Below, piece by piece: positions 15,464-37,556 of a DNA stretch of 64,000 nucleotides. A program made the position numbers and the translations under genes. Below the pieces are notes generated by a model. It made no database searches and was not told where the DNA came from. It saw only the letters and a program-made list of their open reading frames with translations. Source of the DNA: Actinomycetota bacterium. Its GTDB lineage: Bacteria; Actinomycetota; Actinomycetes; Mycobacteriales; JACQDL01. The DNA lies in the NCBI GenBank assembly GCA_016201065.1, contig JACQDL010000031.1:1-64000 (forward strand), given 5' to 3'. The stretch's first letter is position 1. Every line of letters begins with the position of its first letter.

Positions 15464-15465
15464 GG

Positions 15466-16103: not shown

Positions 16104-16378
16104 CAGGCTCCAATCCTCAACACGTCGACGACGACATCTGCGGCGTCGGTGCGGATGGCGTACAACCGCTCTCCAGCAGGGAGGGGGATGGTCTTCTCCG
16201 CGCCAGCCAGCAGGCGGAAACCGATCAGGGTGGTGACGTCGGCACCGCCGAGCGCCACCCTGTTGACCGCATCGGTGTTCCTCACGATCAGCGTCATGCC
16301 GGAAACCGTGTCCGTGTCGGTGGCATTGAGCGGCACCGCCACGACGCCGATCGTGACCTGTCCCGAGGTGAGCGCCAC
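16103..16378 (-). CDS. Small beta-rich head protein
   Basis: 91 residues beginning MALTSGQVTIGVVAVPLNAT, all beta-strand-like, including TLIVRNTDAVNRVALGG. Directly after the major capsid gene. Proteins of this pattern are seen beside capsid genes in many actinophages and may decorate the shell or the fibre base. Confidence 0.6.
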   Translation of the reverse strand: MALTSGQVTIGVVAVPLNATDTDTVSGMTLIVRNTDAVNRVALGGADVTTLIGFRLLAGAEKTIPLPAGERLYAIRTDAADVVVDVLRIGA

Positions 16379-16390
16379 TGTCGGCGCTCC

Positions 16391-17632: not shown

Positions 17633-17659
17633 AGCGGTGCTCCTCTTGGCGAATTGATC

Positions 17660-18370: not shown

Positions 18371-19728
18371 CAGCCCCCCTGGGCGGGTGTGGTCGGTCCG
18401 GCTGGTTGCAGTTGGACGGAGAACAGACCGGAGTGCGCCCCGGACAGGCGACGCAGGTCACCGGACAGGACCGCGTCAACGACCGTGTCCGGGTCGTAGC
18501 CGGCGTCCAGCAACTCCCGGATCGTGCGGGCGCGGGTGGCCTGGATCTCGGCCTCGTCACGGGCGTCCTGCCGCAGGAACGGGATGTCCCGGTCGTCGTA
18601 CCAGAGCACCGCACCGGGCCGTGGCGGCGTCACGAGGGTCTGGAAACTCGCGGCGGCGGTCTGCCACAACCACCGCATCGTCCCGTCAACGAAGCCGCGT
18701 TTCGCCGAGTCGTAGTTGCCGGCGTTCAACGCGGAACCGGCGAGGCCCTCGCTCAGGCCGACGATGACCGGGTGAACGCCTGCCGCGGCGGCGACCCGTG
18801 TTTCGCCGGCACCCTGGGTGTTCTTGAAGTCCAGTTGCTGGAAGTCATGCGACAGTGGCACCGGGTCGGCACCACCACCGAGGAACAGCGTCTCGTAGGC
18901 GGCGTCGACACCCCGGTGGGATTCCTGGAACCGCTTCACGAAGGCGTCGAAGGCCGTCGGGGACACGTCCTTGTCGAACTTCACCGCGAGGTTCGGGGTG
19001 GCTCCGTTGACGAAGAACTTCAGCTTGTGCGTGGTGGCGGCCTTGTCCGCCCGGATCTCGGTGAGGACCGGCGTCAGCCACGACATACCCCGCCAACGGG
19101 CCGCAGGGTCCGGGACCGGCGAGTAGTGGCACACCTCCTCCGGCAGCAGGATCTCTGGCTCCCGGCGAGCCCCGACCTGCGGCTCGTAGGAGAACGCGAC
19201 CACCTTCGCGTCCAAGCCGTTCGGGTCACCTGAGGGCGCGTCAACGATGAGGGTCGTCCAGTCCGGACGCATCCGGGTGATCCGCCGACCAGGGCCGGTG
19301 GCGGCCCGCCCGATCCGGCCGGCGTCGTCGGCGGTCGTGGCGTAGAAGTTTCCCGCCAGGGAGGCGTCTGCCTCGGCGAGCGCGAGCAGGTTGCCGGTCG
19401 TGCCGGTCGGCCACGGAGCCTCCAACAGGCCCAGTTCCGGTGAGCCGAACAGATTCCCGGGCCGACCCGCGGTGAACTCCCGCCACTGGAACCGGGCCTG
19501 GGCGAAGACCCGCATCCGCGCCAGGATGCACGCGAACACCACCCCGGAGGACTTGTAGGCGCCCTGGACGTAGCCGGCGAAGTCGTTCTCGATCCGCTCC
19601 TTGTCCTCGGTCAGGAACGCCGAGGTGAGCAGCGGGTACCGCAGAGCGTCGCCTGCCCAGAACGGCGGCTCCGAGAACGCCTTCGTGCCCCGCCGCGCCG
19701 AGGAGATCCGCTCCAGCAGCGACGCCAC
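18370..19728 (-). CDS. Portal protein
   Basis: 452 residues from GTG 19728 overlapping a TAG. Motifs include ENDFAGYVQGAYKSSGVVFA, FARMRVFAQARFQW-type helix, EICHYSPVPDPAARWRG-like LPEEVCHYSPVP, GMSWLTPVLTEIRADKAATT and FQQLDFKNTQGAGETR, the HK97/phage portal pattern. It forms the twelve-fold channel for DNA at one capsid vertex. Confidence 0.9.
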   Translation of the reverse strand: MASLLERISSARRGTKAFSEPPFWAGDALRYPLLTSAFLTEDKERIENDFAGYVQGAYKSSGVVFACILARMRVFAQARFQWREFTAGRPGNLFGSPELGLLEAPWPTGTTGNLLALAEADASLAGNFYATTADDAGRIGRAATGPGRRITRMRPDWTTLIVDAPSGDPNGLDAKVVAFSYEPQVGARREPEILLPEEVCHYSPVPDPAARWRGMSWLTPVLTEIRADKAATTHKLKFFVNGATPNLAVKFDKDVSPTAFDAFVKRFQESHRGVDAAYETLFLGGGADPVPLSHDFQQLDFKNTQGAGETRVAAAAGVHPVIVGLSEGLAGSALNAGNYDSAKRGFVDGTMRWLWQTAAASFQTLVTPPRPGAVLWYDDRDIPFLRQDARDEAEIQATRARTIRELLDAGYDPDTVVDAVLSGDLRRLSGAHSGLFSVQLQPAGPTTPAQGG

Positions 19729-19949
19729 TACCCGCCGCCCCGACCCGGATCACGAACGCCACGCCGGCCGTCGGAGTACCCGACCCGCACCGCCGAGCCT
19801 CCCCAGGCCACCGCGAACACCATCCGACCGATGATCCAGCCGAGGCCGTAGAAGATCGCCGCGAGTACCGTCAGCAGCACCCGACCTACGTCAACGGTGC
19901 GCGTCCGCTGCGAGATCGCCTCCAGCGGGATCGCGTCCAGCACGCTCAT
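19728..19949 (-). CDS. Small membrane protein between terminase and portal
   Basis: 73 residues with a single hydrophobic segment (VLLTVLAAIFYGLGWIIGRM) and a basic Gly/Arg tail. Its stop overlaps the portal start (TAGTG). Small membrane proteins here are common in actinophages; function unknown. Confidence 0.65.
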   Translation of the reverse strand: MSVLDAIPLEAISQRTRTVDVGRVLLTVLAAIFYGLGWIIGRMVFAVAWGGSAVRVGYSDGRRGVRDPGRGGG

Positions 19950-19952
19950 GCG

Positions 19953-21425
19953 TCACCCTCTCGCGAACAGCGGAACCAGTTCGGCCCGCGCACTGTTGAC
20001 GTGCCCCCAGGCGGCCAACGTCACCGCCACCAGCGGGCTGATATCCACGCCACCGCGACGCGACCACGCCCAGGCATCCCCCAGGGGGCGCCGCACCGCA
20101 CCGGCCAGCGCGGTGGCCAGTTCGGCCTGGCCGCGATGGCGCAGCACCGGCCGGTCGCCGGTCGCCGCGTCGAAGATCCACCCGCACGCCTGCGCGACGT
20201 CCCGCGCCGACGTCGTCACCACCTCAATGCCGGCGGCGGCCAGGTCGGCTATCAACGACCCTGCCGGGCCGGCGGGGTCGACCACCACCGCGCACGGCGA
20301 CCACCGGTCCGTCAGCGCGACCATCCGGTCCACCATCCAGCCGGTGCCCGGACGGTGGTCGGTCACCTCAACGTGCAACGCGCCATCACCGCGCCGACCT
20401 GCCACACCGATCGAGCCCGCGCTGCGGTCCGGTGTCACGTCCAGCGCGAACGCCACCGGGTCCAACACGGTCGAATCCGGGTCGGCCAGGACCTCCCACG
20501 CCGGGCGGGAGATCACCGCCCACCCGTTGTGGATCTCGTCCGGCCACTGGTTGAGGTACGCCCGACGGAACAGGCCCAGACCCTGCTCGGGGTCGGCGAG
20601 CATCGTGTCCAGCTCGGCGCGGATCGCCGCCTCGGTGATCGTGTACCCCAGCGCCGGCATGCACGAGCGCCAGGTCGCCGGGTCAAGAGGGTCCGCGTCC
20701 TCGGGCGCCGACCACTCGAAGTACGCCGTCGTACCACTGGCGCCGGCCGCGACCGCGGCCCGGCCCGCACGTACCTTCGCCCGCAAATACGTCGAACGCC
20801 GATCACCGGCCGTGGAGACCACCCATAGCTGCGGCTGCGGCCGGGTGATCATCGCCGGCCGGAACGCCTGCTCCAACCGGTCATCTTCATGCGCGAACGC
20901 CTCATCGATGATCCCGAGGTCCAGAGTCGGCCCGTGCCCGGACTTCTTCGTCGCCGACACCAGGCCGTGCCGGGAGCCGTTGCGCCACAGGAACGCCTCG
21001 TTCCCGGTGGTCTTCCGGACCCGGACCAGCGACCCGAATGGGGAGTCCCGCAGCAACGGAATGTGCTCGTCCTCCCATTTCTTGCGGGCGTCGATCCTGG
21101 TCTGCGCCGTGTAGAGGATGTTCTGCCGGCCGCCGAATCCCAGCGCCCGGTGCACCGCGACCCCGAGGATCAGCGTCGTCTTGCCCTCCTGGCGCGGGAT
21201 CGTGAGCACGACATCCCGGTAGACCAGCAGCCCGGTGTCCGGGTTGACCTCGCCCGCCACGTCGGCGACCAGCCGCTGCCACGGCATGAACGGCGCACCC
21301 AGCTCGGCGGAAACCTCCGCGACCTTCGGGCCGAGCGTCGGTCGGTCAGGTCGGCGGGGTGTCGCGAACCGGGGCGGACAGTCGAGCGAGGAGATCGGCC
21401 ATGGTGTCGTCGCCACCATCGTCAC
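19953..21425 (-). CDS. Terminase large subunit
   Basis: 490 residues. Walker A region LTIPRQEGKTTLILG near residue 75, Walker B LDLGIIDEAFAH, the coupling motif LWVVSTAGDRR, and a C-terminal nuclease domain with aspartates in ALDVTPDRS and VVVDPAGPAG. It packages DNA through the portal. The start overlaps the small gene upstream by 80 bases; ATG 21425 is the earliest, a later start at 21419 is possible. Confidence 0.92.
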   Translation of the reverse strand: MTMVATTPWPISSLDCPPRFATPRRPDRPTLGPKVAEVSAELGAPFMPWQRLVADVAGEVNPDTGLLVYRDVVLTIPRQEGKTTLILGVAVHRALGFGGRQNILYTAQTRIDARKKWEDEHIPLLRDSPFGSLVRVRKTTGNEAFLWRNGSRHGLVSATKKSGHGPTLDLGIIDEAFAHEDDRLEQAFRPAMITRPQPQLWVVSTAGDRRSTYLRAKVRAGRAAVAAGASGTTAYFEWSAPEDADPLDPATWRSCMPALGYTITEAAIRAELDTMLADPEQGLGLFRRAYLNQWPDEIHNGWAVISRPAWEVLADPDSTVLDPVAFALDVTPDRSAGSIGVAGRRGDGALHVEVTDHRPGTGWMVDRMVALTDRWSPCAVVVDPAGPAGSLIADLAAAGIEVVTTSARDVAQACGWIFDAATGDRPVLRHRGQAELATALAGAVRRPLGDAWAWSRRGGVDISPLVAVTLAAWGHVNSARAELVPLFARG

Positions 21426-21627
21426 CGTCCCTCGTCAGCGCCTCCACCGTGGCCCGCAGTTCCCGGGCGACGGCCGCCGTCGACAGGCCGGCACCCTCGT
21501 CCAGAGTCCGGGCCAGGACTGCGGCCGAGGCGGCCAGGGCGCCAGCACCGTGCGCCGCAAGGTCGAGATCCCGCAGCATCCGCCCGACAGCCACTTCCAC
21601 CGGGCCGCGCCGCCGCCGCTCTGCCAT
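21346..21627 (-). CDS. Terminase small subunit (putative)
   Basis: 93 residues, basic N-terminus then helical (MAERRRRGPVEVAVGRML, LAARTLDEGAGLSTAAVARELRATVE-like helices) and an acidic tail (DGDDGGDDTMADLLARL). The size and position directly before the large subunit match actinophage small terminases. The call is by place and pattern rather than a strong motif. Confidence 0.65.
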   Translation of the reverse strand: MAERRRRGPVEVAVGRMLRDLDLAAHGAGALAASAAVLARTLDEGAGLSTAAVARELRATVEALTRDGDDGGDDTMADLLARLSAPVRDTPPT

Positions 21628-21751
21628 GCCACCTCCAACCGACTACGGTGCGCGGTCCCCCCTCACTCTCCGCACACAAAAATGATCGACTGGGAGCGGG
21701 GTCGGTCGAATGTCCGATTTGCGCGAAGTGGGCGCCCCCCACCCTGTGCCG
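21628..21751. other. Noncoding gap before terminase, possible cos/pac region
   Basis: 124 bases without a plausible gene between the HNH endonuclease and the small terminase. It holds a C-run (CCCCCC about 21657) and a locally AT-rich patch (ACACAAAAATGATCGACT, 21674-21691). Packaging sites commonly lie here in cos-type actinophages, often next to an HNH gene. No overhang sequence can be fixed from this sequence alone. Confidence 0.35.
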
Positions 21752-22048
21752 TCACCAGTCCCGCGACGGAGGCGTGCTCGCGGCGCGACGGACAGCCGCA
21801 CGCCGGTTCCTGGTCCTCGCTCCGGCCGACCGGTTGCACGAGGCGTGCTCCAGCCGTTCGGCCACGCCACCCATCGAGGCCGGCACCGAGTGCCCCGCGT
21901 CCAACCTCTGCCACGGCCACATCGGCTTGCCGCACCGAACACACGGCTGGCCCGGCCGCTCCCGCAGTTCCCACAGCAGCCGCTCCCGGATCGCCTCATG
22001 CTCCGCGCCGTACCCCCGAGCGGCGCTACTGCCCCCGACGACCGGCAT
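21752..22048 (-). CDS. HNH endonuclease next to terminase
   Basis: 98 residues from ATG 22048, with a GAGGTG ribosome-binding site. Contains PCVRCGKPMW, then RLDAGHSVPASMGG and ERLEHASCNRSAGAR: the two zinc-binding CxxC/CxxN corners and the central H of the HNH fold. HNH proteins beside terminase help specific cleavage at cos in many phages. The position fits that role. Confidence 0.85.
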   Translation of the reverse strand: MPVVGGSSAARGYGAEHEAIRERLLWELRERPGQPCVRCGKPMWPWQRLDAGHSVPASMGGVAERLEHASCNRSAGARTRNRRAAVRRAASTPPSRDW

Positions 22049-22058
22049 GCGGGTCACC

Positions 22059-22796
22059 TCATCCGGCCGGGTCGGCCCGTACGGTCTCGTTGATCCGTCG
22101 CGTCGCGATGTCGGCGTAGTGCTCGGACAACTCCACGCCGAGGAATCCGCGGTCTTCGAGGACCGAGGCGACCCCGGTGGTGCCGGAACCGGCGAACGGG
22201 TCAAGGACCCGGCCACCGGGTGGGCAGATCCGCACCAAGTCCCGCATCACCTCCAGCGGCTTCTGGGTGATGTGCATCCGCAGGCCGCCCTTGGGTTGTG
22301 AACCCACATAGAACCCAGGCAGGTAGACCGGGTTCCGGTCGGCGAGGACCGGGCCGTTCGTGCCCCACAGCATGAACTCGCACTCCTGCCGGAACCGTCC
22401 CCGCTGCGGCCGGTTGATCGGCTTGCGCAACGCGAGCGCGCCGCGCCACGTCCAGCCGGCGACCTGCAACGCGTCGGAGGTGGCCGGCAGTTGCCGCCAG
22501 TCGGTGAACACCACCAGCGGTGCGCCTGTACTGGCCGCCGCGAGGGCGTGGGCAAGGATTTGCGCGAGCCACGCACTGTAGGAGCGCTGATCGCGGGAGT
22601 CGCCGACGAAGTCCTCCAAGGCGTGCTGCGCGTCGCTGGACACGTACTTGCGGCGGATTGTCGTCGTCGTCCGCTCCGTTGGTGTGCGACCACCCGAGTT
22701 GTACGGCGGGTCGGTGATGACCGCGTCGATGAAACCCTGTGGAAGAGTCGGAAGGTAGGTCAACGAATCGGCATGCACCATGGCGACGTCGCGCAT
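22059..22796 (-). CDS. DNA methyltransferase (N4/N6 type)
   Basis: 245 residues. DPPY at residues 29-32 precedes the SAM-binding FAGSGTTG near residue 199, giving the beta-class order of amino-methyltransferases (N6-adenine or N4-cytosine). KPLEVMRDLVRICPPGG and GVELSEHYADIA are also typical. No restriction partner is nearby, so it probably protects phage DNA or marks it. ATG 22796 or 22781 could start it. About 166 bases upstream hold no confident gene. Confidence 0.9.
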   Translation of the reverse strand: MRDVAMVHADSLTYLPTLPQGFIDAVITDPPYNSGGRTPTERTTTTIRRKYVSSDAQHALEDFVGDSRDQRSYSAWLAQILAHALAAASTGAPLVVFTDWRQLPATSDALQVAGWTWRGALALRKPINRPQRGRFRQECEFMLWGTNGPVLADRNPVYLPGFYVGSQPKGGLRMHITQKPLEVMRDLVRICPPGGRVLDPFAGSGTTGVASVLEDRGFLGVELSEHYADIATRRINETVRADPAG

Positions 22797-22962
22797 CGAA
22801 TACCCGTCTGTGGAACTGGGCCGGCTGCGCCATGGCGTCTCTGTCGCGGTGGCCCGACACCGAGGTCGAGGGCTCTACCGCTGGCCTTCGCAGCCCGGAG
22901 GGTGACGCCCGCTGCCACCTCACCTAGCCTGACCACAGTTTGCGACACATGATCGTCTTGTG

Positions 22963-23772
22963 TCAACGCGCTGCCACGGCGCCGGTGACGCTGCGGAGGG
23001 CGGCACTGGCCGCGTAGGCCGGCGGGTAGCCGCCCAGGCGCGGCCAGCCGTCACGCTCGGCCCACCGCTGCACCGTACGCACGGTCACGTCAAGCAGAGC
23101 GGCGAGCTGGACCGCGGTCAGCCACTGCTCACGCTCCGGTGCCAGCGACCGGCCGAGCGCCGCCCACTGGCGTGGCGCCCAGGCCGACGCGCACACGGTG
23201 CAGGCCACGACCGCAGGCAGCAGCTCCTCGGTCGCACCGACCATGGCCACGATCCGGCCCGGACAGCGTGCCCCGACATCGTCAGGTTGTGGACAGCCGC
23301 CAATGTCAACCCGGGTCCGCCGCCTCGGGTAGGCATGCGACCACGCGGCGGCGTGCAGGTCGGTGACGTCCTGGGCGTAGTCGTCAACCCATGGCTGGCC
23401 CACGGTCCAGTCGTGGTGGCCGAGCAGCCACGCGACGATCGCCGGCACGGTGTCGGTGGGCGTACCCAGGCCACGCTCCTCGGCGATCATCAGCACCCAG
23501 CTCGCGAGCTTCTGCCGGATCGCGGCCCGCAGCTCGATCAGGCCCGCCGACATGGGTGCCCGGTCGGTGGGTGTGCCACTCACCCGCGGCCCGCCTCCAG
23601 TGCCGACGGCCGGCTCACCGAGGACAACCCACAGGGGTGCCAGTGCGGCCAGCAGGCCCCGCAGCCGGGCGTGGTGGCCGGCACACACGTACGCGCCGTC
23701 AACGGCCCGCCGGGGCCGCTCCGGGTCGGTGTGGTGCGCCAGAACGCATCGGGCCGGCTCGACGGCGGCCAT
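22963..23772 (-). CDS. Helicase-linked protein with HTH end
   Basis: 269 residues from ATG 23772, overlapping the helicase stop (TGATG). It begins with a Cys/His-containing stretch (RCVLAHHTD, YVCAGHHARLRG), has a second Cys group (GGCPQPDDVGARCPG, CTVCASAWAPRQW), and ends with a MerR/excisionase-like helix-turn-helix (WLTAVQLAALLDVTVRTVQR). Likely a DNA-binding replication accessory; helicase loading is one possibility. Confidence 0.7.
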   Translation of the reverse strand: MAAVEPARCVLAHHTDPERPRRAVDGAYVCAGHHARLRGLLAALAPLWVVLGEPAVGTGGGPRVSGTPTDRAPMSAGLIELRAAIRQKLASWVLMIAEERGLGTPTDTVPAIVAWLLGHHDWTVGQPWVDDYAQDVTDLHAAAWSHAYPRRRTRVDIGGCPQPDDVGARCPGRIVAMVGATEELLPAVVACTVCASAWAPRQWAALGRSLAPEREQWLTAVQLAALLDVTVRTVQRWAERDGWPRLGGYPPAYAASAALRSVTGAVAAR

Positions 23773-25076
23773 CACGCCACCCCCGGGATCGGCCGCACCT
23801 TCGCCATCGACTCCAGCCGGCAGTGCTGGCCGGCGAACCGCAACGGGAACCCGCCGCGCTCACCCTGCCGGTTCTTCGCCACCGCGACAGCCACCCGCGA
23901 CGGGTCGTCGTCAGCGTCCCGGTGCAGCAACGCCACCATGTCCGCGTTCTGCTCGATCTCGCCGGACTCCCGCAGATCCGCCATCGACGGTTTCTTGTCA
24001 GCCCGGATCTCGCTGGCACGGTTGAGTTGGGAGAGCACCAGCACCGCCACACCCAGCTCCTTGGCCAGCAGCTTCAGCGCCCGGGAGAACTCCCCGACGA
24101 TCTCGTGCCGGGCCGTGCGACCCGATCCGGCCGGTGCCGCCAGCAGCTGGAGGTAGTCCACCACCACCAGCCGGATCGGGTGGGTGCGGGCCAGGCCACG
24201 CACCCGTGAGCGGATGTCGTGCACACGCAACGGCACCTGGTCGTCGACCCACAGCGGCAGGTCGGACAGGCGGTTGACCGCCTCGGCGATCCGCCGCCAC
24301 TCGCCGTCACCGAGCTGGCGGCGTTCCAGCAGCGCGTAGTCCACCCGGCCGACCGACGACACCAGCCGGGCGTCAATCTCCGCCCGACCCATCTCCAGGC
24401 TGAACACGCACGCGCCGATCCCGTGGCGGGCCACGTCGGCGGCGGCCTGAACCCCGAAGATCGACTTGCCGACGCCGGGTCGGGCCGCGACCACGTACAT
24501 CCGGCCCGGCGCCCACCCATTGATCAACCGGTTGAGGTCCGGCCACGCGGTCGGGGTGAACTCCGCTGCCCGCTCCCACTCGTCCAGTGACGCGGCGATG
24601 GACTCCCCGACCGTCACCCACGGGCCACTGCGGGAGGTGGTGGCGGCTGCGTCGATCTCGACCCGGGCACGGTCGCACAGCTCCGCGGCCGAACCGGGGG
24701 CGTCGTCGGCACCGTGGGCCATCTGCTGCACCCGCATACCGGCGGCGATGAGCCGGCGCCGGACCGCGGTGTCGGCCACGATCCGTGCGTACCAGCTCGC
24801 GTTGCCCACGGTCGGCACGTCGGCGGCCAGGCCCTGGAGGTCGTGCGGGGCCAGGCCGGGGATCGGGTCGGTGAGCAGCCGCCCGCCGACGGTGCCCAGG
24901 TCGACGGGTTGCCCGCTCTCGCGCATCGCACGGATCAGCGCCAGCAGCGCGCCGTGCCGGTGGTCGTAGAAGTCGCCCGGGTCGAGGTGGTCGACGTCAT
25001 CGGCGGCGGAGGCGGCGAGCATCGCGGCACCCAGGACGGCCCGTTCGGCAGCGAGGTCGTGCGGCAGGTCGGTCAT
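23772..25076 (-). CDS. Replicative DNA helicase (DnaB-like)
   Basis: 434 residues from ATG 25076 (MTDLPHDLAAERAVLGAAM). The N-terminal DnaB primase-interaction domain is followed by the RecA-like core: Walker A AARPGVGKSIFG, Walker B LVVVDYLQLL, the DnaB motif VLVLSQLNRASE and QNADMVALLHRD. It unwinds phage DNA at the fork. It lies beside the initiator gene and the candidate origin. Confidence 0.92.
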   Translation of the reverse strand: MTDLPHDLAAERAVLGAAMLAASAADDVDHLDPGDFYDHRHGALLALIRAMRESGQPVDLGTVGGRLLTDPIPGLAPHDLQGLAADVPTVGNASWYARIVADTAVRRRLIAAGMRVQQMAHGADDAPGSAAELCDRARVEIDAAATTSRSGPWVTVGESIAASLDEWERAAEFTPTAWPDLNRLINGWAPGRMYVVAARPGVGKSIFGVQAAADVARHGIGACVFSLEMGRAEIDARLVSSVGRVDYALLERRQLGDGEWRRIAEAVNRLSDLPLWVDDQVPLRVHDIRSRVRGLARTHPIRLVVVDYLQLLAAPAGSGRTARHEIVGEFSRALKLLAKELGVAVLVLSQLNRASEIRADKKPSMADLRESGEIEQNADMVALLHRDADDDPSRVAVAVAKNRQGERGGFPLRFAGQHCRLESMAKVRPIPGVA

Positions 25077-25945
25077 GCGCGTCCTCGTTCGGCTTGAGCC
25101 CACAGGGTGGCGTGCGGGGTCGGCGCGGCCGGCGCAGCCCGTGGCGGTGGTTGCCCGACCTCGCTCCATCGACGCACCAGCGCCGAGGGGGTGAGGGTGA
25201 CGCCGGGCCAGTGCTCCCGGAACGCCTCGGCGTGGCGGGCGATCTCGCCAGGACTGGCACCGATCTTGCGGAGTTCGGCGACGGCCCTGTTGCAGGCCCC
25301 CCGAGCTGGCCCGGTCATCGAGGTCGTGTCGACGTGGCAGGCGTCAACGATCGCGTCCCAGAGGTCGTCGCGGGGTCGTCGGCGCTCGCGCTCGCCGGAG
25401 GCGGGCGCCAGTAGTTGTTCTTTATTACTCCCCTCCCCTCCCCTCCTGTGGTGAGTTCCGGAGAGTTTCGGAGAGTCTGGGAGAGGTTCGGAGAGTTCCG
25501 GGGAGGTAGCGGGAGATGTGGAGAGTTCCGGAGAGTCTGGGAGAGGTACCGGCGGATCGGATTGCGACCCCTCAGCCTCGGGTGAGGTCGCCCCGGATGG
25601 ACCGTCCACCACCCCCACAGTGCAGACCGGGCACCTGGCGGCCCACCGTTTGTCGGTCTTCTGGTGATCGGGCAACCGGTGCGCGTGCAGGTAACGCCGT
25701 CCGTCCCTGGCCGTGATCCGCCGCAGCTTTCCGGCGGCGACCAACTCCTCGACCAGCGCCTGGGCGTCAACATCATCGGCCGGCAGGATCTGGAGTCTCA
25801 ACGAGAACGGGTCGTCAGGCAGGTGGCCCTGGTCGCACAGGGCGAAGTTCCAGCAGCCCATGTACAGCAGCCGCGCGAACGGGCTGAGCTTCACGATGCC
25901 GGCGTCGGTCCAGAACTCCGGCTTGAGGTACCGCATCCGGGCCAT
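25073..25945 (-). CDS. Replication initiator-like protein
   Basis: 290 residues starting MARMRYLKPEFWTDAGIVKL, the usual opening of phage replication proteins with an N-terminal winged-helix (FARLLYMGCWNFALCDQG, LRRITARDGRRYLHAHRLPD). A low-complexity centre (SPELSTSPATSPELSEP) links to a C-terminal domain (RRPRDDLWDAIVDACHVD). Neighbour of the DnaB-like helicase. The linker is encoded by DNA repeats that look like an origin, as in the lambda O gene. Confidence 0.82.
   Translation of the reverse strand: MARMRYLKPEFWTDAGIVKLSPFARLLYMGCWNFALCDQGHLPDDPFSLRLQILPADDVDAQALVEELVAAGKLRRITARDGRRYLHAHRLPDHQKTDKRWAARCPVCTVGVVDGPSGATSPEAEGSQSDPPVPLPDSPELSTSPATSPELSEPLPDSPKLSGTHHRRGGEGSNKEQLLAPASGERERRRPRDDLWDAIVDACHVDTTSMTGPARGACNRAVAELRKIGASPGEIARHAEAFREHWPGVTLTPSALVRRWSEVGQPPPRAAPAAPTPHATLWAQAERGRA
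25412..25551 (-). other. Candidate phage replication origin inside the initiator gene
   Basis: Repeats of a GTTCCGGAGAG/TCTGGGAGAGGT unit fill about 25450-25551 (at least four GGAGAG-type units; a 25-bp block recurs with a 10-bp insertion). Next to them at 25415-25430 lies TTGTTCTTTATTACT, a rare AT-rich stretch, and then a CCCCT-repeat run (GGGGA on the coding strand, G-quadruplex-like). Iterons plus AT-rich DNA in the initiator gene is a known phage origin plan. Confidence 0.6.
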
Positions 25946-26146
25946 CTACTCCTCCGTCCCCCGCCTACGGCGGGCGATGTCCTCCATCGGCACCCCACCC
26001 AGCGCCTCGGCAACATCGTCGGCATGTGGCCGACACTCCACGCACCAGTGCCGGTGGGCGAGGATCGAACGTGCCAGCAGGTTCCGGTCTGTCACCGCAG
26101 CCCTGGATGGCCGCGGCAGCGGGACCACGGTGTCGTCGGCGGTCAT
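25946..26146 (-). CDS. Small protein between WhiB and initiator
   Basis: 66 residues (MTADDTVVPLPRPSRAAVTD, RNLLARSILAHRHWCVECRP). Ends directly before the initiator start and overlaps the WhiB stop with ATGA. One CxxC pair is visible. No family recognised. Confidence 0.6.
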   Translation of the reverse strand: MTADDTVVPLPRPSRAAVTDRNLLARSILAHRHWCVECRPHADDVAEALGGVPMEDIARRRRGTEE

Positions 26147-26595
26147 TGGCTCCTCACCTTCGGTCCCCGTTTCCGGGCGGCGCCGGCAAGCCGGCGAACC
26201 CGCTCAGGCACCGGGTCGCTGTGGCGCTGGGCGTTGCGCTGAATCGCCGCGGCCCGCTGCGGCGTGAGCACGTCGGGCAGGTCCGCGTCGGTGACCACCC
26301 AGTGCCGGGCGTCACGCGATCTGGCTCTGTCCTCACGTCGCCTGGATCGCTCCTGCTCCTCCATGTCCATCCCACCCCAGATGCCGTGCCGGATGCCGTT
26401 CGTGAGTGCCCAGGTCAGGCAGTACGCCTCGACCGGGCACCGGTCACAGACCGCTTTGGCGTCGACGATCTGCCGCACCGCCGGCCCGGTGTCCCCGATC
26501 GGGAAGAACAGCTCCGGGTCCTCGTTCCGGCACGCCGCGCGGCTGCGCCACACCACGTCCGCGGACGTGTGGACGGGATCTCGTGCCGTGGTCAC
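26143..26595 (-). CDS. WhiB-family iron-sulfur regulator
   Basis: 150 residues from GTG 26595. Four cysteines at 22, 50, 53 and 59 (AACRNEDPELFFP, AVCDRCPVEAYC) have the Wbl spacing for a 4Fe-4S cluster, followed by the GIRHGIWGGMD turn. A basic C-terminal region (ARKRGPKVRSQ) suits DNA contact. Phage-encoded Wbl proteins such as that of TM4 can compete with host WhiB proteins and alter division or superinfection. Here it sits among early/replication genes. Confidence 0.93.
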   Translation of the reverse strand: MTTARDPVHTSADVVWRSRAACRNEDPELFFPIGDTGPAVRQIVDAKAVCDRCPVEAYCLTWALTNGIRHGIWGGMDMEEQERSRRREDRARSRDARHWVVTDADLPDVLTPQRAAAIQRNAQRHSDPVPERVRRLAGAARKRGPKVRSQ

Positions 26596-26933
26596 AGTGA
26601 CCCCGCCCGGTGCGTGCTCATGCCGGTACGGCGCCGTCGTGCCGCGTTCCGCCAGCTACGACGCCGAACCGCCAGCCGGCACTCCTCGCAGTACGGGGAC
26701 CGCCCCACGCATGGCGCCTCGCGGCACCGCGCGCACGCGCCGAGCGGCCGGCTGCGCTGCCACCAGGTGTTGATAGGCCGGTCGATGTCGATGAGCGCCG
26801 CGGCGACGACGAGCGCCGAGGTTGGGTCGTCAACGGCCGCCAGGGCCGGGGCGACGGCGTCGGGTTCCTCCCGCAGCAGGACCGCGACGGTGAGGACCTG
26901 GTCGATGAGTTCGCCAGCCCGGTCGTCATCCAT
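26592..26933 (-). CDS. Zinc-ribbon prophage protein
   Basis: 113 residues from MDDDRAGELIDQVLTVAVLL. The helical N-terminal half contains DDPTSALVVAAALIDIDRP. The C-terminal half has CARCREAPCVGRSPYCEECR, a four- to six-cysteine zinc site, and a basic tail. It is coupled to the WhiB gene by GTGA. DNA or protein binding is plausible. Confidence 0.65.
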   Translation of the reverse strand: MDDDRAGELIDQVLTVAVLLREEPDAVAPALAAVDDPTSALVVAAALIDIDRPINTWWQRSRPLGACARCREAPCVGRSPYCEECRLAVRRRSWRNAARRRRTGMSTHRAGSL

Positions 26934-27360
26934 CGGCCGTCGTCCTTCCAAGCAGCGCGCCCGAGCGGTGTGTTCGCAGCGCCGGCAGTCGTACGGGAAC
27001 CGGCACGCATGAGATCCACCAGTGCGCGGGCAGGCAACCGGCTTCCACCTCGGCGCGGACCCGCCGGGTGATGTCGGTGCGGCTGCGCACCCACCGGGTC
27101 CAGGGCACGACGGTGGTGGTGTCGGCGGCGGTGAACCGCCACGTGGTGCGGTCGCAGTGCAGCGCGCGCCGGTCCAGGCCGAGGGCACGGGGATGGGGCA
27201 TGTCCAGGTCGGTCAGCCAGATGATGTGCAGCATCCAGTCCAGTCCGGGAGCCAGCTCGCGCATGCCGTGGTGGTCGGCCATGGTCCGCAGCCTGCCGTC
27301 GGCGATGATGCCCTGCGCGCTGTGGACACAGGTGTAGTGGTGGAGCATGGGCGTGGTCAC
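26926..27360 (-). CDS. Uncharacterised early protein with HYTC start motif
   Basis: 144 residues from GTG 27360, overlapping the preceding stop. It opens LHHYTCVHSAQGIIADGRLR, then DWMLHIIWLTDLDMPHPRALG and TWRFTAADTTTVVPWTRW. The HYT...GII..GRLR start and the IWLTDL strand resemble ADP-ribosyltransferase-fold proteins such as DarT/Tpt1-like enzymes, but catalytic residues cannot be confirmed. May be a host-modifying early protein. Confidence 0.6.
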   Translation of the reverse strand: MTTPMLHHYTCVHSAQGIIADGRLRTMADHHGMRELAPGLDWMLHIIWLTDLDMPHPRALGLDRRALHCDRTTWRFTAADTTTVVPWTRWVRSRTDITRRVRAEVEAGCLPAHWWISCVPVPVRLPALRTHRSGALLGRTTADG

Positions 27361-27599
27361 GACTCGCCGCCCGTCTCGCCGTCGAGCAACCCGGCGGGTG
27401 CGTTGTAGCGGGCCTGGAGTTCGGCCCATACGTCCGGCCACATTGCGCGTAGCGCCCGGGCGTTGTCGGTGTCGGCCTTGCGCATGCACGCCATGAGCAG
27501 GGCGTAGAAGTCGTCGTATGCGGCAGCGATCTGCCCGGAGAGACGGTAGGAGTGATAGCGGTGACCGCCAGTCGGGCGGTTGACGTCGGGTGTGGTCAT
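27357..27599 (-). CDS. Small helical early protein
   Basis: 80 residues: MTTPDVNRPTGGHRYHSYRL then AYDDFYALLMACMRKADTDN and MWPDVWAELQARYNAPAG. Starts with an ATGA overlap and ends with a GTGA overlap. Helical, no family recognised. Confidence 0.6.
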   Translation of the reverse strand: MTTPDVNRPTGGHRYHSYRLSGQIAAAYDDFYALLMACMRKADTDNARALRAMWPDVWAELQARYNAPAGLLDGETGGES

Positions 27600-27946
27600 G
27601 GCCGGATCTCCCCGGTGTCGGGGTCCACGCCCTGCCCGAACACCGCGCGCAGCTCGTCCTCTAGCGCCAGCGGGAGCACGGCCTTGCCGGTGCGGGTCTC
27701 GTAGGCCCGCCGCAGCAGGGAGATCAGCCGCTGCCCGTCGGTCGGGTCGGAGATGACCTCGATGCGGCGGACCCGCGCGGTCGGCACCACCTCCCCGGTG
27801 TCGTTGTCGGTGGTGGTGCGTTTGCAGTCGACGAGGGCAACGACGACATGCAGGTCGTGCGGCGCGCCGATGAGGTGCTCCACGATGGCCAACAGGCCAT
27901 TCGCGTCTCCGGATGGCAAGCCGCTGGCGAGTTTCGCGGTGGGCAT
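27596..27946 (-). CDS. Early protein, replication/recombination block
   Basis: 116 residues from MPTAKLASGLPSGDANGLLA. Contains DLHVVVALVDCKRTTTDND, then RVRRIEVISDPTDGQRLISL and TGKAVLPLALEDELRAVFG. A beta-sheet plus helix layout appears throughout actinophage early regions. Function unknown; overlaps both neighbours by TGATG/ATGA. Confidence 0.6.
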   Translation of the reverse strand: MPTAKLASGLPSGDANGLLAIVEHLIGAPHDLHVVVALVDCKRTTTDNDTGEVVPTARVRRIEVISDPTDGQRLISLLRRAYETRTGKAVLPLALEDELRAVFGQGVDPDTGEIRP

Positions 27947-28449
27947 CAGGTGCTCCTCCTGGTCCTGCTCGATCTGGTGGGCGCCCACGTCGCCAGGGCG
28001 GCTCGCGCGATCGCGAGCACGCACGCCGGCGTGTATCCGGTGTGTCCGTGGCAGTGGCCGCGCTCACGGCAGGCGTCGGGATGGTCCCGGCCGGTCCGGC
28101 GGTCGACACTGGTGCGCCACGTCCACCCCGGCGGCCGGTAGCCGAACACCTTCCTGGCGGACCAGCACGCGGGCAGGGCGCAGCTGCAGCCAGGGATCGC
28201 TGCCCGCCAGGTCGGTGCCTGGCCGATCCGCCCACCAGTGAGGTGGTACACGGTGCGGCCGTCGGCGCGGACCTCACGGGCGATCGTGACGTGGGCGTGC
28301 CTCGACTCGACGCGCCGTGGTGTGGTCACCCATTCCAGGTCGTGGCGCGTCACGACGGGCTCCGGCCGGCAGACCGGGACGCCAGCGGCGAGGAGATCAT
28401 CGACCATGGTCACGGCGATCTCCTCACCCATGATCCGCAGGCCGGCCAC
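27946..28449 (-). CDS. Cys-rich early protein
   Basis: 167 residues (MAGLRIMGEEIAVTMVDDLL; a second ATG seven codons in). Contains EVRADGRTVYHLTGGR, then AIPGCSCALPACWSARKVFG, CRERGHCHGHTGYTPAC and a basic tail. Several Cys/His groups suggest zinc binding. Overlaps the next gene upstream by 40 bases. No family recognised. Confidence 0.6.
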   Translation of the reverse strand: MAGLRIMGEEIAVTMVDDLLAAGVPVCRPEPVVTRHDLEWVTTPRRVESRHAHVTIAREVRADGRTVYHLTGGRIGQAPTWRAAIPGCSCALPACWSARKVFGYRPPGWTWRTSVDRRTGRDHPDACRERGHCHGHTGYTPACVLAIARAALATWAPTRSSRTRRST

Positions 28450-28748
28450 CAGGTGCGCACGTCGGTCGCCGGACCGTGGCTGGCGTAGGGCGCCTCATCC
28501 AGCGGCCGGCCCACCCCGATGCCCTGGTCGCATTTGGGATAGGTGCGGCGGTGCCAGCGGACCAGGACCCGGTGTGCGCAGGTGCCGCAGGTGCCCAGCT
28601 CGGGCCGGGAGCGGTCGCGGGTGAGTGGGTGCCAGCCGGCCTCGACCTCGGCGCGCTGCCGCTGGGTGCGGCGCCGGCCCGCCGACAAGCGCCCGACCGG
28701 CTCCGGCTCGACCCGCGCCGGCTCCGGGAACAGGCCCGCCGCACTCAC
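28410..28748 (-). CDS. Zinc-binding early protein
   Basis: 112 residues from GTG 28748. CGTCAHRVLVRWHRRTYPKC is a compact four-Cys-type site, and the tail has RTWWPACGSW. The N-terminal part is proline/arginine-rich. The pattern recalls phage proteins that accompany replication genes. Coupled to the preceding gene by GTGA. Confidence 0.62.
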   Translation of the reverse strand: MSAAGLFPEPARVEPEPVGRLSAGRRRTQRQRAEVEAGWHPLTRDRSRPELGTCGTCAHRVLVRWHRRTYPKCDQGIGVGRPLDEAPYASHGPATDVRTWWPACGSWVRRSP

Positions 28749-28954
28749 GATCCCTCCAGCGGATGCTCGATGTACCAGCGCCGGCCGGCGACCATCGCGT
28801 GCATGTGAGCGCCACCGAACCGGCCCGGCCGGTGGCTGGCGTTGATCTCCCGCCGCAGCTCGACGGGCAGCCGGCGCCAGCAGCCCGGGCACGCGAAGTG
28901 CTTGCGGGGCACTGGCTGGCCGCAGCCGCCGGGGCAGCCGTGGGTGTCAGGCAT
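28745..28954 (-). CDS. Small zinc-ribbon protein
   Basis: 69 residues, MPDTHGCPGGCGQPVPRKHF then ACPGCWRRLPVELRREINAS. Two CxxC-type pairs form a zinc ribbon; the rest is basic. Common in actinophage early regions; function unknown. Confidence 0.65.
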   Translation of the reverse strand: MPDTHGCPGGCGQPVPRKHFACPGCWRRLPVELRREINASHRPGRFGGAHMHAMVAGRRWYIEHPLEGS

Positions 28955-29435
28955 CGGCGGTCACCTCGGTCCAGTCCGTGCCGTAGCCGGCCCACCGCAG
29001 CAGCAGGGAGGCGTCGGCGACGGTCAGGCGTAGTGGTGGGTTGGGTGCGTCGGCGACAGCGGTCGGCCAGGACAGGTCCACCAGGGCGGCGGCGGTGCGG
29101 GCCGGTAGCCAAGCGAACCACTCGCCCACGTCGGCGGTTCCGGGGCGGCGCACGATCAATAGGCCGATCGCGGCGCCGGCCACGACGCGCTGCCGCTCGG
29201 TTTCGGCCATCCATTCGGGCACGGCCCGCTCGGCGCGGGCGGGTGGTTGCAGGGACTTAACCTGGGCGATGACGCCGGGGCACAGGTCGAGGTCGCCGGC
29301 ATCCTCGGCCGAGCGGTCGCGGGTGCGCCACCCGGTGCGGATGATGCGCTCCGCACCAGGGAACCCGTGGGTGCGCCACCACGCGGCGACGGCCCGCTCG
29401 GTCGCCTTCCCGAGCCGGGCGTGGGCGGCGGTCAC
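28947..29435 (-). CDS. Nuclease-fold protein (Holliday-junction resolvase/VRR type)
   Basis: 162 residues from GTG 29435 (VTAAHARLGKATERAVAAWW). The centre GDLDLCPGVIAQVKSLQPP has the D-(x)n-hydrophobic-x-QVK pattern of PD-(D/E)xK nucleases, and the first helix carries the usual Glu. Likely processes recombination or replication intermediates together with the Sak4-like ATPase nearby. Whether it is a resolvase or another nuclease cannot be decided here. Confidence 0.68.
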   Translation of the reverse strand: MTAAHARLGKATERAVAAWWRTHGFPGAERIIRTGWRTRDRSAEDAGDLDLCPGVIAQVKSLQPPARAERAVPEWMAETERQRVVAGAAIGLLIVRRPGTADVGEWFAWLPARTAAALVDLSWPTAVADAPNPPLRLTVADASLLLRWAGYGTDWTEVTADA

Positions 29436-29626
29436 CGCTGCCGTCCCTCGGTCGGGTCGTAGTCGCCGGCCCACTCGGGCCAGTCGCCCCGCGGCGTCGT
29501 GTTGGGCCTGCTCGACCTGATGATCGTCACAAGACCGACGATCGTCGCCTCGATCAGCACGAAGGCGAGCAGACCCAGACCCAACCCGATCAGTACCAGA
29601 CTCGACGTACCCAGCCAGGTGATCAC
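29432..29626 (-). CDS. Small membrane protein
   Basis: 64 residues from GTG 29626 overlapping the preceding stop. One long hydrophobic stretch (LVLIGLGLGLLAFVLIEATI) followed by a soluble tail (RGDWPEWAGDYDPTEGRQR). No family recognised. Confidence 0.65.
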   Translation of the reverse strand: MITWLGTSSLVLIGLGLGLLAFVLIEATIVGLVTIIRSSRPNTTPRGDWPEWAGDYDPTEGRQR

Positions 29627-29820
29627 GCCAGCCACCCCCCGCCGTCCCAGACGGCCTCGTGGCGCAGGTAGACGTGGTCGGCCAGCGCGGCCGTGGCCTG
29701 CCTCGGGTCGTAGTAGGGGCCGACGACCCGCCGGCAGCCGGGGCGGTCGCACGTGGCCGTCTGGGTTGGTGGGCCGCCGCACAGCTCGTCCAGGCGTGTG
29801 GTGTCGGTGGTGGTGGTCAT
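29623..29820 (-). CDS. Small zinc-containing early protein
   Basis: 65 residues, MTTTTDTTRLDELCGGPPTQ, with TCDRPGCRRVVGPYYDPRQA and HVYLRHEAVWDG. Cys and His spacing (CDRPGC...H...H) resembles a C2H2-type site. Function unknown. ATG overlaps the preceding stop. Confidence 0.6.
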   Translation of the reverse strand: MTTTTDTTRLDELCGGPPTQTATCDRPGCRRVVGPYYDPRQATAALADHVYLRHEAVWDGGGWLA

Positions 29821-30089
29821 GAGGTCCACCACCCGGCGGGGGTGTCGGTGTGGGGGTTGTCGGTTCGCTGTGGCCGGTCTCGCTGGGCGAGCGCGGTGAT
29901 CCACCCGGCTGGTGAGGTGATCCGGGTGCCGTCCCGCCAGTGGGTGCGGGCTCCGTCGGGGGCACGGTGCCGGCCGGCGTCCGGTGCTAGCTGTGGGATG
30001 ACGACGGTGGCGTCGGGGTCGGTCGGGGTGACGGGCCAGACGAGTGCTGCCGCGAGCATGAGGCCCGCCAACAGTCCAAGCGTGATCAT
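29817..30089 (-). CDS. Small membrane-anchored protein
   Basis: 90 residues from ATG 30089 behind GGGAG. The first 20 residues (MITLGLLAGLMLAAALVWPV) are an anchor or signal, followed by a soluble tail (RTHWRDGTRITSPAGWITAL). Small early membrane proteins often affect superinfection or host processes; no specific evidence here. Confidence 0.6.
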   Translation of the reverse strand: MITLGLLAGLMLAAALVWPVTPTDPDATVVIPQLAPDAGRHRAPDGARTHWRDGTRITSPAGWITALAQRDRPQRTDNPHTDTPAGWWTS

Positions 30090-30151
30090 GATGCTCCCCT
30101 GGTTGGGGGTCGCGCGGGCGCGCTCCTTTCCCGCACGCCCGCGCGGCCAGC

Positions 30152-30688
30152 TCATGCGGTCGGTGGATTCGGGTCGGCCGGCTCGGCGTCGACAGCCGGA
30201 ACGGGGTCGGTGGGCAGCACCGATGCGGGCACCGCCAGGCGGCCGGCACGGAACTCCTCGTCGATCAGCGCCGCGCACCCCTTGGCGGGCACTACCCGCA
30301 CCGATGGGGGGCCGGTATCTACGACGATGCCGGGCACACCCGGTTCCCCGGTGGCCGGATCAACGGACTCCCCGGCTGCTTTCGCGGCCTCCAGTAACAC
30401 CGTGAGGTAGGAGGCACGGATCGTCGGCTCGGCCACGATCTCGTCGGGACGGTGCGTACGCACCCAGGCCATCAGCGCACGCGGGTCGGACACCCGGGCG
30501 CGCACCGACCCGGCGACCTGCTGCACCACACCAACCTGGGTGCGGTCAGGCCCGACCGCCCACACCGACCGGTCCCCGGCGTCAGTGGCCTCGGCGTAGC
30601 GTTGCCGGACCACGATGTCGGCGGCCTTGACCCGCTTGGCCAGCTCGGCGAGCACCAGCAGGTCCCGCGCCGCGTTCTTGGCGGTCAC
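30152..30688 (-). CDS. Partner of Sak4-like ATPase
   Basis: 178 residues from GTG 30688 overlapping the ATPase stop. The N-terminal helix (AARDLLVLAELAKRVKAADI) and VWAVGPDRTQVGVVQQVAGS strands are of a type often encoded directly after phage RecA/Sak4-like genes. Acidic, proline-rich end. A recombination or single-strand-binding accessory is possible. Confidence 0.6.
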   Translation of the reverse strand: MTAKNAARDLLVLAELAKRVKAADIVVRQRYAEATDAGDRSVWAVGPDRTQVGVVQQVAGSVRARVSDPRALMAWVRTHRPDEIVAEPTIRASYLTVLLEAAKAAGESVDPATGEPGVPGIVVDTGPPSVRVVPAKGCAALIDEEFRAGRLAVPASVLPTDPVPAVDAEPADPNPPTA

Positions 30689-31590
30689 AGGGCCTCACCG
30701 GCCTCCCGCACCCGGGCGGCGTTGCCGGCCACGATCAGCAGCTCACGCAGGGTCGTGGCGGTGCCGTCGGCGTCGACGACCGCCGCGTTGAGCAGGTTGC
30801 GGTTGCTGGCGTCGCCGTAGATTCCCCGCAGCGCCTCGGCGGTCACACCCTCGGCGAGGATCCTGGCGCGCAGTTCCACCGCGCCGGCTGGCGCGGGTTT
30901 CCCATCACCGAGCCACGCCAGCACCTGCTCGGCGAGGTCCTGCCCGGGCCGGTTGATGACCGCCCCCGACAGTGCCCGGCAGCGGCTCTTGGTGACGACG
31001 AGGGTGTTTTCCAGGTCCAGGTCGCCGACGATGTCGAACTCGTATTCGATGCCGTCGCGTTGCTCTGGCTTCAACCCGACCTTGCGGGGCACCTTCTTCC
31101 CGCGTGCGTCTTCCTCGACGACGTACTCGGTCTTGGTGCGCATGGTGACGATGACGTGGCCGTCGTAGGCGAGCAGCGCGTCGATCATCCGGCGTTCGTG
31201 GGGTCGGGCTTCCTTCCACCCGCCGAAGGAGTTCCCTCCGGCGGAGCGTTTCGCGGCGGCGTCGACCAGCTCCAGCATGCCGCCGGCACCCATCCAGAAG
31301 TGCGACATCGAATCGACGACGGTGCACCCGTATCCGCCGGCCTGCGCGGCGGCGAGCGCTTGGATGAGGTCCCGGGGGTCGAACTTCGTCATCCGGAGGG
31401 TGTCGAAGTTGAACTCGTCGGCGTACTTGCTGGCCGATCCGCGTTCGGTGTCGATGACCGCGAACCGTTCCGCGAAGTGGCTGGCGAGGGTGAGCGCGGT
31501 GTAGGTCTTGCCGGACCCGGAGGGTCCCGCGAGCGCCACACGCGCCTTCGCTTGTTCCTTCGTGGCGGGTGCGAACACGAACTCGGTCAT
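30685..31590 (-). CDS. Sak4-like RecA-fold ATPase
   Basis: 301 residues from ATG 31590 (MTEFVFAPATKEQAKARVAL). Walker A GPSGSGKTYTAL at 22-29, Walker B region CTVVDSMSHFW, HVIVTMRTKTEYV and a short C-terminal tail. This is the AAA_24/Sak4 single-strand annealing group used by phages for recombination with a paired SSB. Overlap of ATGA with the gene upstream shows coupling. Confidence 0.87.
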   Translation of the reverse strand: MTEFVFAPATKEQAKARVALAGPSGSGKTYTALTLASHFAERFAVIDTERGSASKYADEFNFDTLRMTKFDPRDLIQALAAAQAGGYGCTVVDSMSHFWMGAGGMLELVDAAAKRSAGGNSFGGWKEARPHERRMIDALLAYDGHVIVTMRTKTEYVVEEDARGKKVPRKVGLKPEQRDGIEYEFDIVGDLDLENTLVVTKSRCRALSGAVINRPGQDLAEQVLAWLGDGKPAPAGAVELRARILAEGVTAEALRGIYGDASNRNLLNAAVVDADGTATTLRELLIVAGNAARVREAGEAL

Positions 31591-32039
31591 GACGCACCAC
31601 CGGGCGCGTCGGCGAGCAGCGGGTGGCAGTCCCACCGGACCTGCTCGACCACGCGGGTCACCTCGACCGTGGGTGCGGCGGCCACGTAGTTGGGGTCCGG
31701 TACCTGTTCGACGACCGTCTCGGTGCCGGTGACGACCCGTTCGCAGACGGTGTCCCGGAGGGTTCCGATCGTGATGCGCAGACCTTCGGGGCCGCCGAGA
31801 CGGCCGGTCAGGTCCAGGTACTTCTCGTCGTATCCCGACCCGGACCCCGGGTCGTTGCGGTGCATCGGCACGCCGAGCATCCGGCGGATCTCCGCCATCC
31901 GCGGTCCAGGGTCATTGCCCCAGAGGCTGATCGACATGGCGCTGTCGCTTCCCTGGTAGGGCAGCGGCAGGTCGGGATGCTGCTCCAGCCGGTCGGCGAG
32001 CATCCGGAGGCCCCTCACATATTCGCTTCTACTATTCAC
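31587..32039 (-). CDS. Early phage protein
   Basis: 150 residues from GTG 32039 overlapping the HNH stop. Contains YVRGLRMLADRLEQHPDLPL, MSISLWGNDPGPRMAEIRRM, DLTGRLGGPEGLRITIGTLR and a C-terminal TVEVTRVVEQVRWDCHPLL. Alpha/beta protein of unknown function commonly found beside Sak4 ATPases in actinophages, by recollection of gene order rather than motif. Confidence 0.6.
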   Translation of the reverse strand: MNSRSEYVRGLRMLADRLEQHPDLPLPYQGSDSAMSISLWGNDPGPRMAEIRRMLGVPMHRNDPGSGSGYDEKYLDLTGRLGGPEGLRITIGTLRDTVCERVVTGTETVVEQVPDPNYVAAAPTVEVTRVVEQVRWDCHPLLADAPGGAS

Positions 32040-32539
32040 GTCGCACTCCTCATTGCCAGCCGCCGACGGCGCTGATACTCGCGGCAATGGATTCGACGGC
32101 ATTCCTTGCAATACCGCTTGCCGCGATTGACGTAAGTGTTGATCTCGTCGAATGGGTGACCGGCGACGCATTCGCTGGAGAGGATGTTTCGAGCTACCTG
32201 ATTCGTGCCGCGCAGGGTGTTCTCGCGACTGGTAACAACCTCAAGGTGATCAGGGTTCACACATCTGGTGTTGCGGCAGAGGTGGTCGAGGTGCATTCCC
32301 GCGGCGATCGGTCCTCGATGGAGCAACCAGGAGAGTCGGTGCGTCAATCGCCGATGCCCGCCAATGGTCATCTGTCCATAGCCGGAGCCGCTCATCGCAC
32401 CGTTCCACGACCAGCAACCCGGTCCCACTTCAACGTGCTTCCAGAATCGCCTCTCCCAGCCGGGTCGACCGTTCGTCGTGTACGACTCCAACGTCGTTGT
32501 ACCGGCGATGTATCCGGCCCGCTCCTGCTCGGCGCTCAC
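32036..32539 (-). CDS. HNH homing endonuclease
   Basis: 167 residues from GTG 32539. FWKHVEVGPGCWSWNGAMSG, GYGQMTIGGHRRLTHRLSWL, HLDHLCRNTRCVNPDHLEVV and ENTLRGTN mark the HNH_3 homing group, with a C-terminal zinc/NUMOD-like end (CKECRRIHCREY). GC content and codon use are visibly lower than neighbours, as for a mobile gene. It sits between two coupled early genes, joined by GTGA on both sides. Confidence 0.93.
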   Translation of the reverse strand: MSAEQERAGYIAGTTTLESYTTNGRPGWERRFWKHVEVGPGCWSWNGAMSGSGYGQMTIGGHRRLTHRLSWLLHRGPIAAGMHLDHLCRNTRCVNPDHLEVVTSRENTLRGTNQVARNILSSECVAGHPFDEINTYVNRGKRYCKECRRIHCREYQRRRRLAMRSAT

Positions 32540-33324
32540 GAGGTCACCCCCAGCCCCGCCGCGGGGTGCGGCTCCCGTGCCGCGACCAGCAGCGCCTCGT
32601 CCAACCAGACCTCGAAGCTCCGGGTCGCCAGATCACCGTCGCCGCCGAAGGAATGGACCCGCGACCAGTGCCGCAGCAACCGGACCTGATCGAGGATCCG
32701 GTGCCAGTTCCGGTGCCGCTGCACCCGACTGGAGTGCGCCGGCATCAGCTCCACCAACACGGGGTCGAGCAGGTGCTGCGGGACCTCGACGAGGGTCGCG
32801 TCGCCGTAGAGGAGGTCATCGGCGTGTTCGGCCAGCAGCCGCAGTGCCAGCCTCCGCTCGGCGACGGCGCCACCCAGCGCCGTGGCAACCACGTACGCGG
32901 TGGCCTCGGTGACCCATCCGGCCTCCCGCAGCGCCTGCACCGTGGCCGGTAGCGGTTCGGGCCGGCCCAGGGGGTCGGCCCCGGTTAGGGCGAGCAGAGC
33001 GGCCCGGCGCAGCGCAGGCGAGTGCTCGTCGATGCCCCGGCACAGCGTCGCCCACGCCGGCATGACTGCCCGGCCGGCGGCCAGGATGGTGACGACCTGC
33101 CCGATCTCCCCGTCCAGGCAGGGCTTCCCGTTGACGTCCGGTTCCCATGCGCTCCGGTCGGCCGCCAGCAGGTGCAGGGCGATCGCCCGCATCGCCGGCG
33201 CCAGCGCCTCGTCGGTGACCCGGACGGCGACGGCGATCGCGACCCGGGTCGCCTCACTGATCCGGCCCATCCGCTCCGCGTGGTTGGTCAGCGTCTCAAC
33301 GCACGAGTCCTCGGCACTGGTCAC
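32536..33324 (-). CDS. Early protein, paralogue of the upstream gene
   Basis: 262 residues from GTG 33324. The block WEPDVNGKPCLDGEIGQVV, then MPAWATLCRGIDEHSPALR, recurs in the next gene upstream (33321-34181). Mostly helical (ATRVAIAVAVRVTDEALAPA). It lies in the early array before the HNH gene. No family name known to me. Confidence 0.7.
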   Translation of the reverse strand: MTSAEDSCVETLTNHAERMGRISEATRVAIAVAVRVTDEALAPAMRAIALHLLAADRSAWEPDVNGKPCLDGEIGQVVTILAAGRAVMPAWATLCRGIDEHSPALRRAALLALTGADPLGRPEPLPATVQALREAGWVTEATAYVVATALGGAVAERRLALRLLAEHADDLLYGDATLVEVPQHLLDPVLVELMPAHSSRVQRHRNWHRILDQVRLLRHWSRVHSFGGDGDLATRSFEVWLDEALLVAAREPHPAAGLGVTS

Positions 33325-35428: not shown

Positions 35429-35504
35429 GGAGTGCCCCTTTCTCAGGTTGGTGGTGCTCGGTAGGCCCCTGGAGCGGTGGCAGCCGCGACGGGGGCCGCT
35501 TCTT

Positions 35505-37555: not shown

Positions 37556-37556
37556 G

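Follow-up and report, generated by a model that had tools for sequence, protein, structure and literature searches.

A candidate replication origin of 10-bp iterons and a purine-rich block within the initiator gene of an actinobacterial prophage

The window analysed here, a stretch of 64,000 nucleotides from an Actinomycetota bacterium (contig JACQDL010000031.1), contains a prophage with integrase, terminase, portal, capsid and endolysin genes. Its ends are marked by an exact 44-bp direct repeat of the tRNA-Lys 3′ end, which we identify as attL and attR, and the 38.5-kb prophage is therefore apparently complete. The features referred to below are as follows.

138..38654, no strand assigned: whole prophage, between the two 44-bp att copies
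138-181 and 38611-38654: the att copies, within the tRNA-Lys 3′ end
38611-38684: tRNA-Lys
37557-38525, minus strand: integrase
23772..25076, minus strand: DnaB-like replicative helicase gene (PF03796, E 9e-72; PF00772, E 3e-15)
25073..25945, minus strand: replication initiator gene, 290 aa (PHROG 1408, E 6e-19; PHROG 16167, E 1e-18)
25616..25945, minus strand: part of the initiator gene coding for the N-terminal domain, aa 1-110, presumed to bind the iterons (AlphaFold2 and Foldseek)
25451..25549, minus strand: iteron array, ten 10-bp units with CTC[TCA]C cores (exact chain and synonymous-shuffle test)
25428..25446, minus strand: purine/G-rich block, GGAGGGGAGGGGAGGGGAG on the coding strand (unique asymmetry; 10-bp register with the iterons)
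25410..25429, no strand assigned: AT-rich block (5/20 GC), a candidate duplex-opening site

The helicase is the gene next to the initiator, as a sequence-only reading of this DNA had proposed, and its ATG overlaps the initiator stop codon (ATGA). Both profile matches of the initiator are significant and place it with the phage initiators of PHROG 1408 and 16167, while Pfam and PDB sequence searches returned no significant domain or relative. The AlphaFold2 model has an N-terminal winged-helix-like domain (pLDDT 90 or more at aa 11-90), a linker and a helical C-terminal domain; the low model confidence of the linker indicates that it is probably disordered. The top PDB matches of the model in Foldseek are 4pt7, 4pql and 5kbj, all weak (E 0.016-0.19, target TM 0.41-0.44; E 0.016 and target TM 0.42 for the best), with the entry titles 'Structure of initiator', 'N-Terminal domain of DNA binding protein' and 'Structure of Rep-DNA complex'. 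We take these three to be RepA_N plasmid initiator proteins. Neither the RepA_N domain (PF06970) nor the lambda O N-terminal domain of Pfam was matched by the window initiator or by the other 17 members of the alignment.

There are ten consecutive CTC[TCA]C cores on the coding (minus) strand of the initiator gene, starting at 25545, 25535 and so on to 25455 with a spacing of exactly 10 bp, in a 10-bp repeat unit of the form NNN(A/C)CTC(T/C/A)C. Units 1 to 5 read CCTCTCCCAG ACTCTCCGGA ACTCTCCACA TCTCCCGCTA CCTCCCCGGA and units 6 to 10 read ACTCTCCGAA CCTCTCCCAG ACTCTCCGAA ACTCTCCGGA ACTCACCACA, followed downstream by GGAGGGGAGGGGAGGGGAG and then TAATAAAGAACAACTACT. The repeat units of 11 or 12 nt described in the sequence-only reading are phases of this one 10-bp period. 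Other parts of the window, and 200 shuffled versions of the prophage, contain 10-bp chains of at most 2 cores, as compared to 10 here. Since 10 is not divisible by three, the cores run through all three codon frames. The array has a lag-10 identity of 0.64, and synonymous-codon shuffles that hold the protein fixed predict 0.345 (z 7.6, with 0/20,000 reaching the observed value); this shuffling rules out repeats in the encoded protein as the cause of the DNA period. The array codes for about aa 130-165, mostly inside the low-confidence stretch of the model, in agreement with the earlier proposal that the repeats encode the linker. Helically spaced direct repeats within the initiator gene, the mark of an in-gene iteron origin, are thus found in the window and, as described below, family-wide.

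The purine block reads CTCCCCTCCCCTCCCCTCC on the plus strand, which is the GGGGA run noted previously; the direct repeats, the AT-rich block and this run do lie together within the initiator gene where they had been reported. The block region is the only site in the prophage with at least 22/24 pyrimidines (or purines) on the plus strand, and it is the most extreme such tract. In the window and its closest relatives the offsets from iteron to purine block are 10, 20, 30 ... bp, with a few offsets of 2 bp. The AT-rich block had been proposed as a melting site. No other 20-mer in the 38.5-kb prophage has so little GC, but the AT-rich flank is not enriched family-wide among homologs. G-quadruplex potential had also been proposed; the canonical form (four runs of at least 3 G, loops 1-7) is absent from 25380-25600 on both strands, and the G run yields only a 2-tetrad motif. 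Canonical motifs are enriched on the coding strand across the family, where 63/133 genes have one, as compared to 22 expected and to 13 genes with one on the template strand.

The window protein had no relative among genome contigs and one weak locus among viral contigs, and relatives were therefore gathered via phage homologs. We collected 228 genes and cut them to 133 that are non-redundant (below 70% identity); many come from metagenomic contigs whose hosts are not known. Among these 133 genes, which are not phylogenetically independent, 113 contain repeats of non-codon period at P<0.05 by same-gene synonymous shuffles (69 at the floor of 0.002) and 20 have no significant repeat. The repeats nearly always lie just past the N-terminal domain, in the same linker. 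Neighbour genes are at chance level: P<0.05 is reached by 8/145, and the floor of that test by none.

The iteron word varies by group (ACTCTCC, CTCACTGA, TCGCGA, TCGTCGA and GATTCC), and the step from one copy to the next is mostly 10, 11, 20 or 22 bp. Of 149 core spacings, 131 match a whole number of helical turns to within 1 bp and only 14 are divisible by three. Purines on the coding strand mark the second block, which consists of (GGGAA)n, (GGGGAACA)n or a variant. At least 28 purines occur within some 30-nt window of 76/133 genes, and the matching pyrimidine window is found in 0/133, the common direction of the tract being fixed by that of the gene. The last iteron precedes the purine block by a preferred 9, 20, 31 or 42 bp in the CTCACTGA class and most often by 19 bp in the TCGCGA class. 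Initiators with similar N-terminal domains tend to share an iteron class (partial Mantel r 0.39, P 0.001), and the corresponding value for the C-terminal domain is only 0.065. Inside the element 15% of codons are synonymously changed vs 29% elsewhere in the gene, and the fraction is lower inside in 39/43 pairs of relatives, some of which are close to one another so that the pairs, like the 133 genes, are incompletely independent.

The nearest named phage is Arthrobacter phage Hum25, whose initiator is about 50% identical over aa 1-144. Hum25 has ACTC cores 20, 30, 40, 60 and 80 bp before GGAAGGGAAGGGATGGGAAGGGAAAGTAAAAAG and a different linker peptide. The initiator of L121, an IMG/VR phage with 42% identity over the N-terminal part, carries AAACTCTCCCAAACTCTCCGACACTCTCC and AGGAGGGGATAGGAGAGGAGAGGAGAGTAAAGAACA. 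Core, order, strand and helical register thus recur among proteins that are 40-50% identical. The sequence-only reading had made repeat conservation in related phages a check on its proposal, and the repeats are indeed kept as DNA though the linker peptide is not. For Arthrobacter phages ArV2, Prairie, Coral, Andrew and others, the similarity of the initiator to that of Hum25 is confined to the C-terminal domain, which suggests that the N-terminal domain and the origin are exchanged as a module. In the homolog L120 (IMGVR_UViG_2734481943_000001, initiator from 1501) the frame stops just past the purine block and the homology goes on downstream, which could come from a frameshift, from a split gene or from an error in sequencing.

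Cumulative GC skew was the other proposed check that can be computed. Net GC skew over the circularised prophage is almost zero; the cumulative curve has its minimum at 24,621, which is 0.9 kb from the in-gene element, and peaks at 10,728 (block permutation P <= 0.002). Both extremes keep their positions within the 4.8-35.4 kb block, where the predicted genes run almost all one way. The picture is mixed in nine other phages, with the element close to the skew minimum in only some of them, and we therefore regard the skew as supporting rather than decisive.

We propose that the 140-bp stretch is very probably the replication origin of the phage, lying where the phage's own initiator gene codes for the linker. 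The best reading of the sequence is an in-gene element resembling the origins of lambda O and of the RepA_N plasmid pSK41, and the lambda O-like interpretation offered earlier has come through both the skew and the conservation checks. From the layout we infer iteron binding, melting, helicase loading and fork direction. The N-terminal winged helix of the initiator would bind adjacent iterons along the same face of the DNA, in steps of 10-11 bp, and the resulting oligomer would stand in helical register with the adjacent purine-rich block. The duplex would open at that block, helped in this phage by the AT-rich block, and the purine strand may be captured in single-stranded form. The DnaB-like helicase from the adjacent gene would then take over the opened origin from the C-terminal domain, allowing the circularised phage genome to replicate, with the linker peptide acting chiefly as a tether between the two domains. 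Binding by the N-terminal domain, opening of the block and recruitment of the helicase are proposed by analogy with pSK41.

Three other explanations were considered. The repeats could be products of slippage or duplication that are tolerated in the linker and have no role as DNA. Tandem duplication can yield any repeat period without selection, and the encoded stretch is predicted to be disordered. Against this, synonymous sites are more conserved in the element than in the rest of the gene (39/43 pairs), such repeats are missing from neighbour genes, the iteron type follows the N-terminal domain, and core, order, strand and register recur in proteins of 40-50% identity that have other linker peptides. 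We consider slippage very unlikely. An operator through which the initiator or another regulator controls the replication operon, with the origin elsewhere, would also be suited to phased repeats, which cooperative repressors can use, and initiators often control their own genes. A site in mid-gene, about 400 nt past the start codon and beside a block of the melting type, better fits an origin, the GC-skew minimum is nearby, and in pSK41 the in-gene sites with such a layout are origins (PMC5703833); an operator here seems to us equally improbable.

The purine block also holds a GGAGG-like sequence, and the early stop of L120 just past the block could be taken as a sign of a second protein product made from an internal ribosome-binding site or by frameshifting. 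Start codons after the block are not enriched in the frame of the gene (9 in frame 0 vs 16 and 3 in the other frames, 123 genes), however, and either signal would leave the iterons and their register unexplained. We give such a product almost no credence, and an origin in the initiator gene is the interpretation compared with known systems below.

Origins within initiator genes are already known from lambda O and from the well-studied pSK41. The lambda origin has four longer iterons (about 18-bp) and an A/T-rich segment. As in lambda O, the iterons and the candidate melting region of the prophage lie inside the initiator gene and adjoin helicase-loading functions, and one homolog, HK639 gp54, adjoins a P-like helicase loader. 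Unlike lambda O, the phage initiator has no match to the lambda O Pfam domain, its units are of 10 bp, its second block is G/A-rich, and the phage has its own DnaB. The pSK41 rep gene is similar in that the binding sites are central in the gene and encode the linker: the N-terminal winged helix of Rep binds these boxes, the origin-encoded linker is dispensable, and the C-terminal domain recruits replication proteins, the partner shown being the DnaG primase (PMC5703833). The N-terminal domain and origin of RepA_N plasmids, e.g. pPR9, are exchangeable as a module (PMC5703833). In contrast to the DnaG partner of pSK41, the adjacent phage gene encodes DnaB, and whereas the pSK41 origin has four Rep boxes with A+T-rich tracts (PMC5703833), the phage has ten 10-bp iterons and a G/A-rich repeat. 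The phage protein also differs in having no RepA_N Pfam match and weak structural similarity. Mycobacteriophages Miko, Rachaly and Jeeves, which are RepA replicons, have a lambda-like origin proposed just upstream of or within repA, and no repeats were found in that study (mBio 2020, PMC7157519). Their RepA is likewise an actinophage initiator but apparently belongs to another family (the helix-turn-helix of Miko is at residues 95-132; PMC7157519). The layout can further be likened to the DnaA boxes and DnaA-trios of oriC, double-strand sites beside a strand-specific repeat that guides opening. This would be an analogy of function only, as the initiator is a different one and the trinucleotide repeats of oriC are replaced by GGGAA or GGGGAACA.

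The sequence-only reading knew of no described case in this phage type. In-gene origins are a known kind, as above, but the combination of iterons and purine repeat was not found described in the open-access literature, an absence that is not proof; no earlier description thus appears to exist of the conserved second block with its strand-specific purine repeat, which keeps helical register with the iterons. Nor did we find a mapping of the origins of most actinobacteriophages in the literature. A conserved G/A-rich repeat is a surprise at the place where AT-rich melting DNA would be expected. It is possible, though we lean somewhat against it, that tailed-phage initiators from actinobacterial, proteobacterial and other phages form a large family with a common origin layout, in which family-specific iterons at 10-11 bp steps are locked in helical register to a strand-specific GGGAA, GGGGAACA or GGGGA repeat that serves as a sequence-specific platform for unwinding or helicase loading and replaces the AT-rich melting region. 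Such a platform would perhaps be like the DnaA-trios but G-rich, and might act through an R-loop or a captured single strand. The two-part pattern could permit prediction of origins from sequence in many phage genomes, and it points to joint movement of the DNA-binding domain and its origin as one recombining module.

A homologous initiator is also encoded by the Streptomonospora litoralis plasmid phiM2 (NZ_CP036456.1; L285:8980-10032), which is circular, phage-named and 90 kb long, and the linker of this initiator encodes GEQGNRG, the peptide typical of the GGGGAACA block. Plasmid records were rejected as evidence for autonomous replication: a 29.7-kb E. coli record with int, cIII and kil resembles an excised lambdoid prophage, and the phiM2 homolog was likewise not counted. 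Two tandem repeats of longer period lie in the window outside the prophage, CATCAGCGCGCCCCGAA in five 17-bp copies (42183-42267) and GCACCAAGGCAGCGCCCC in nearly four 18-bp copies (54731-54798).
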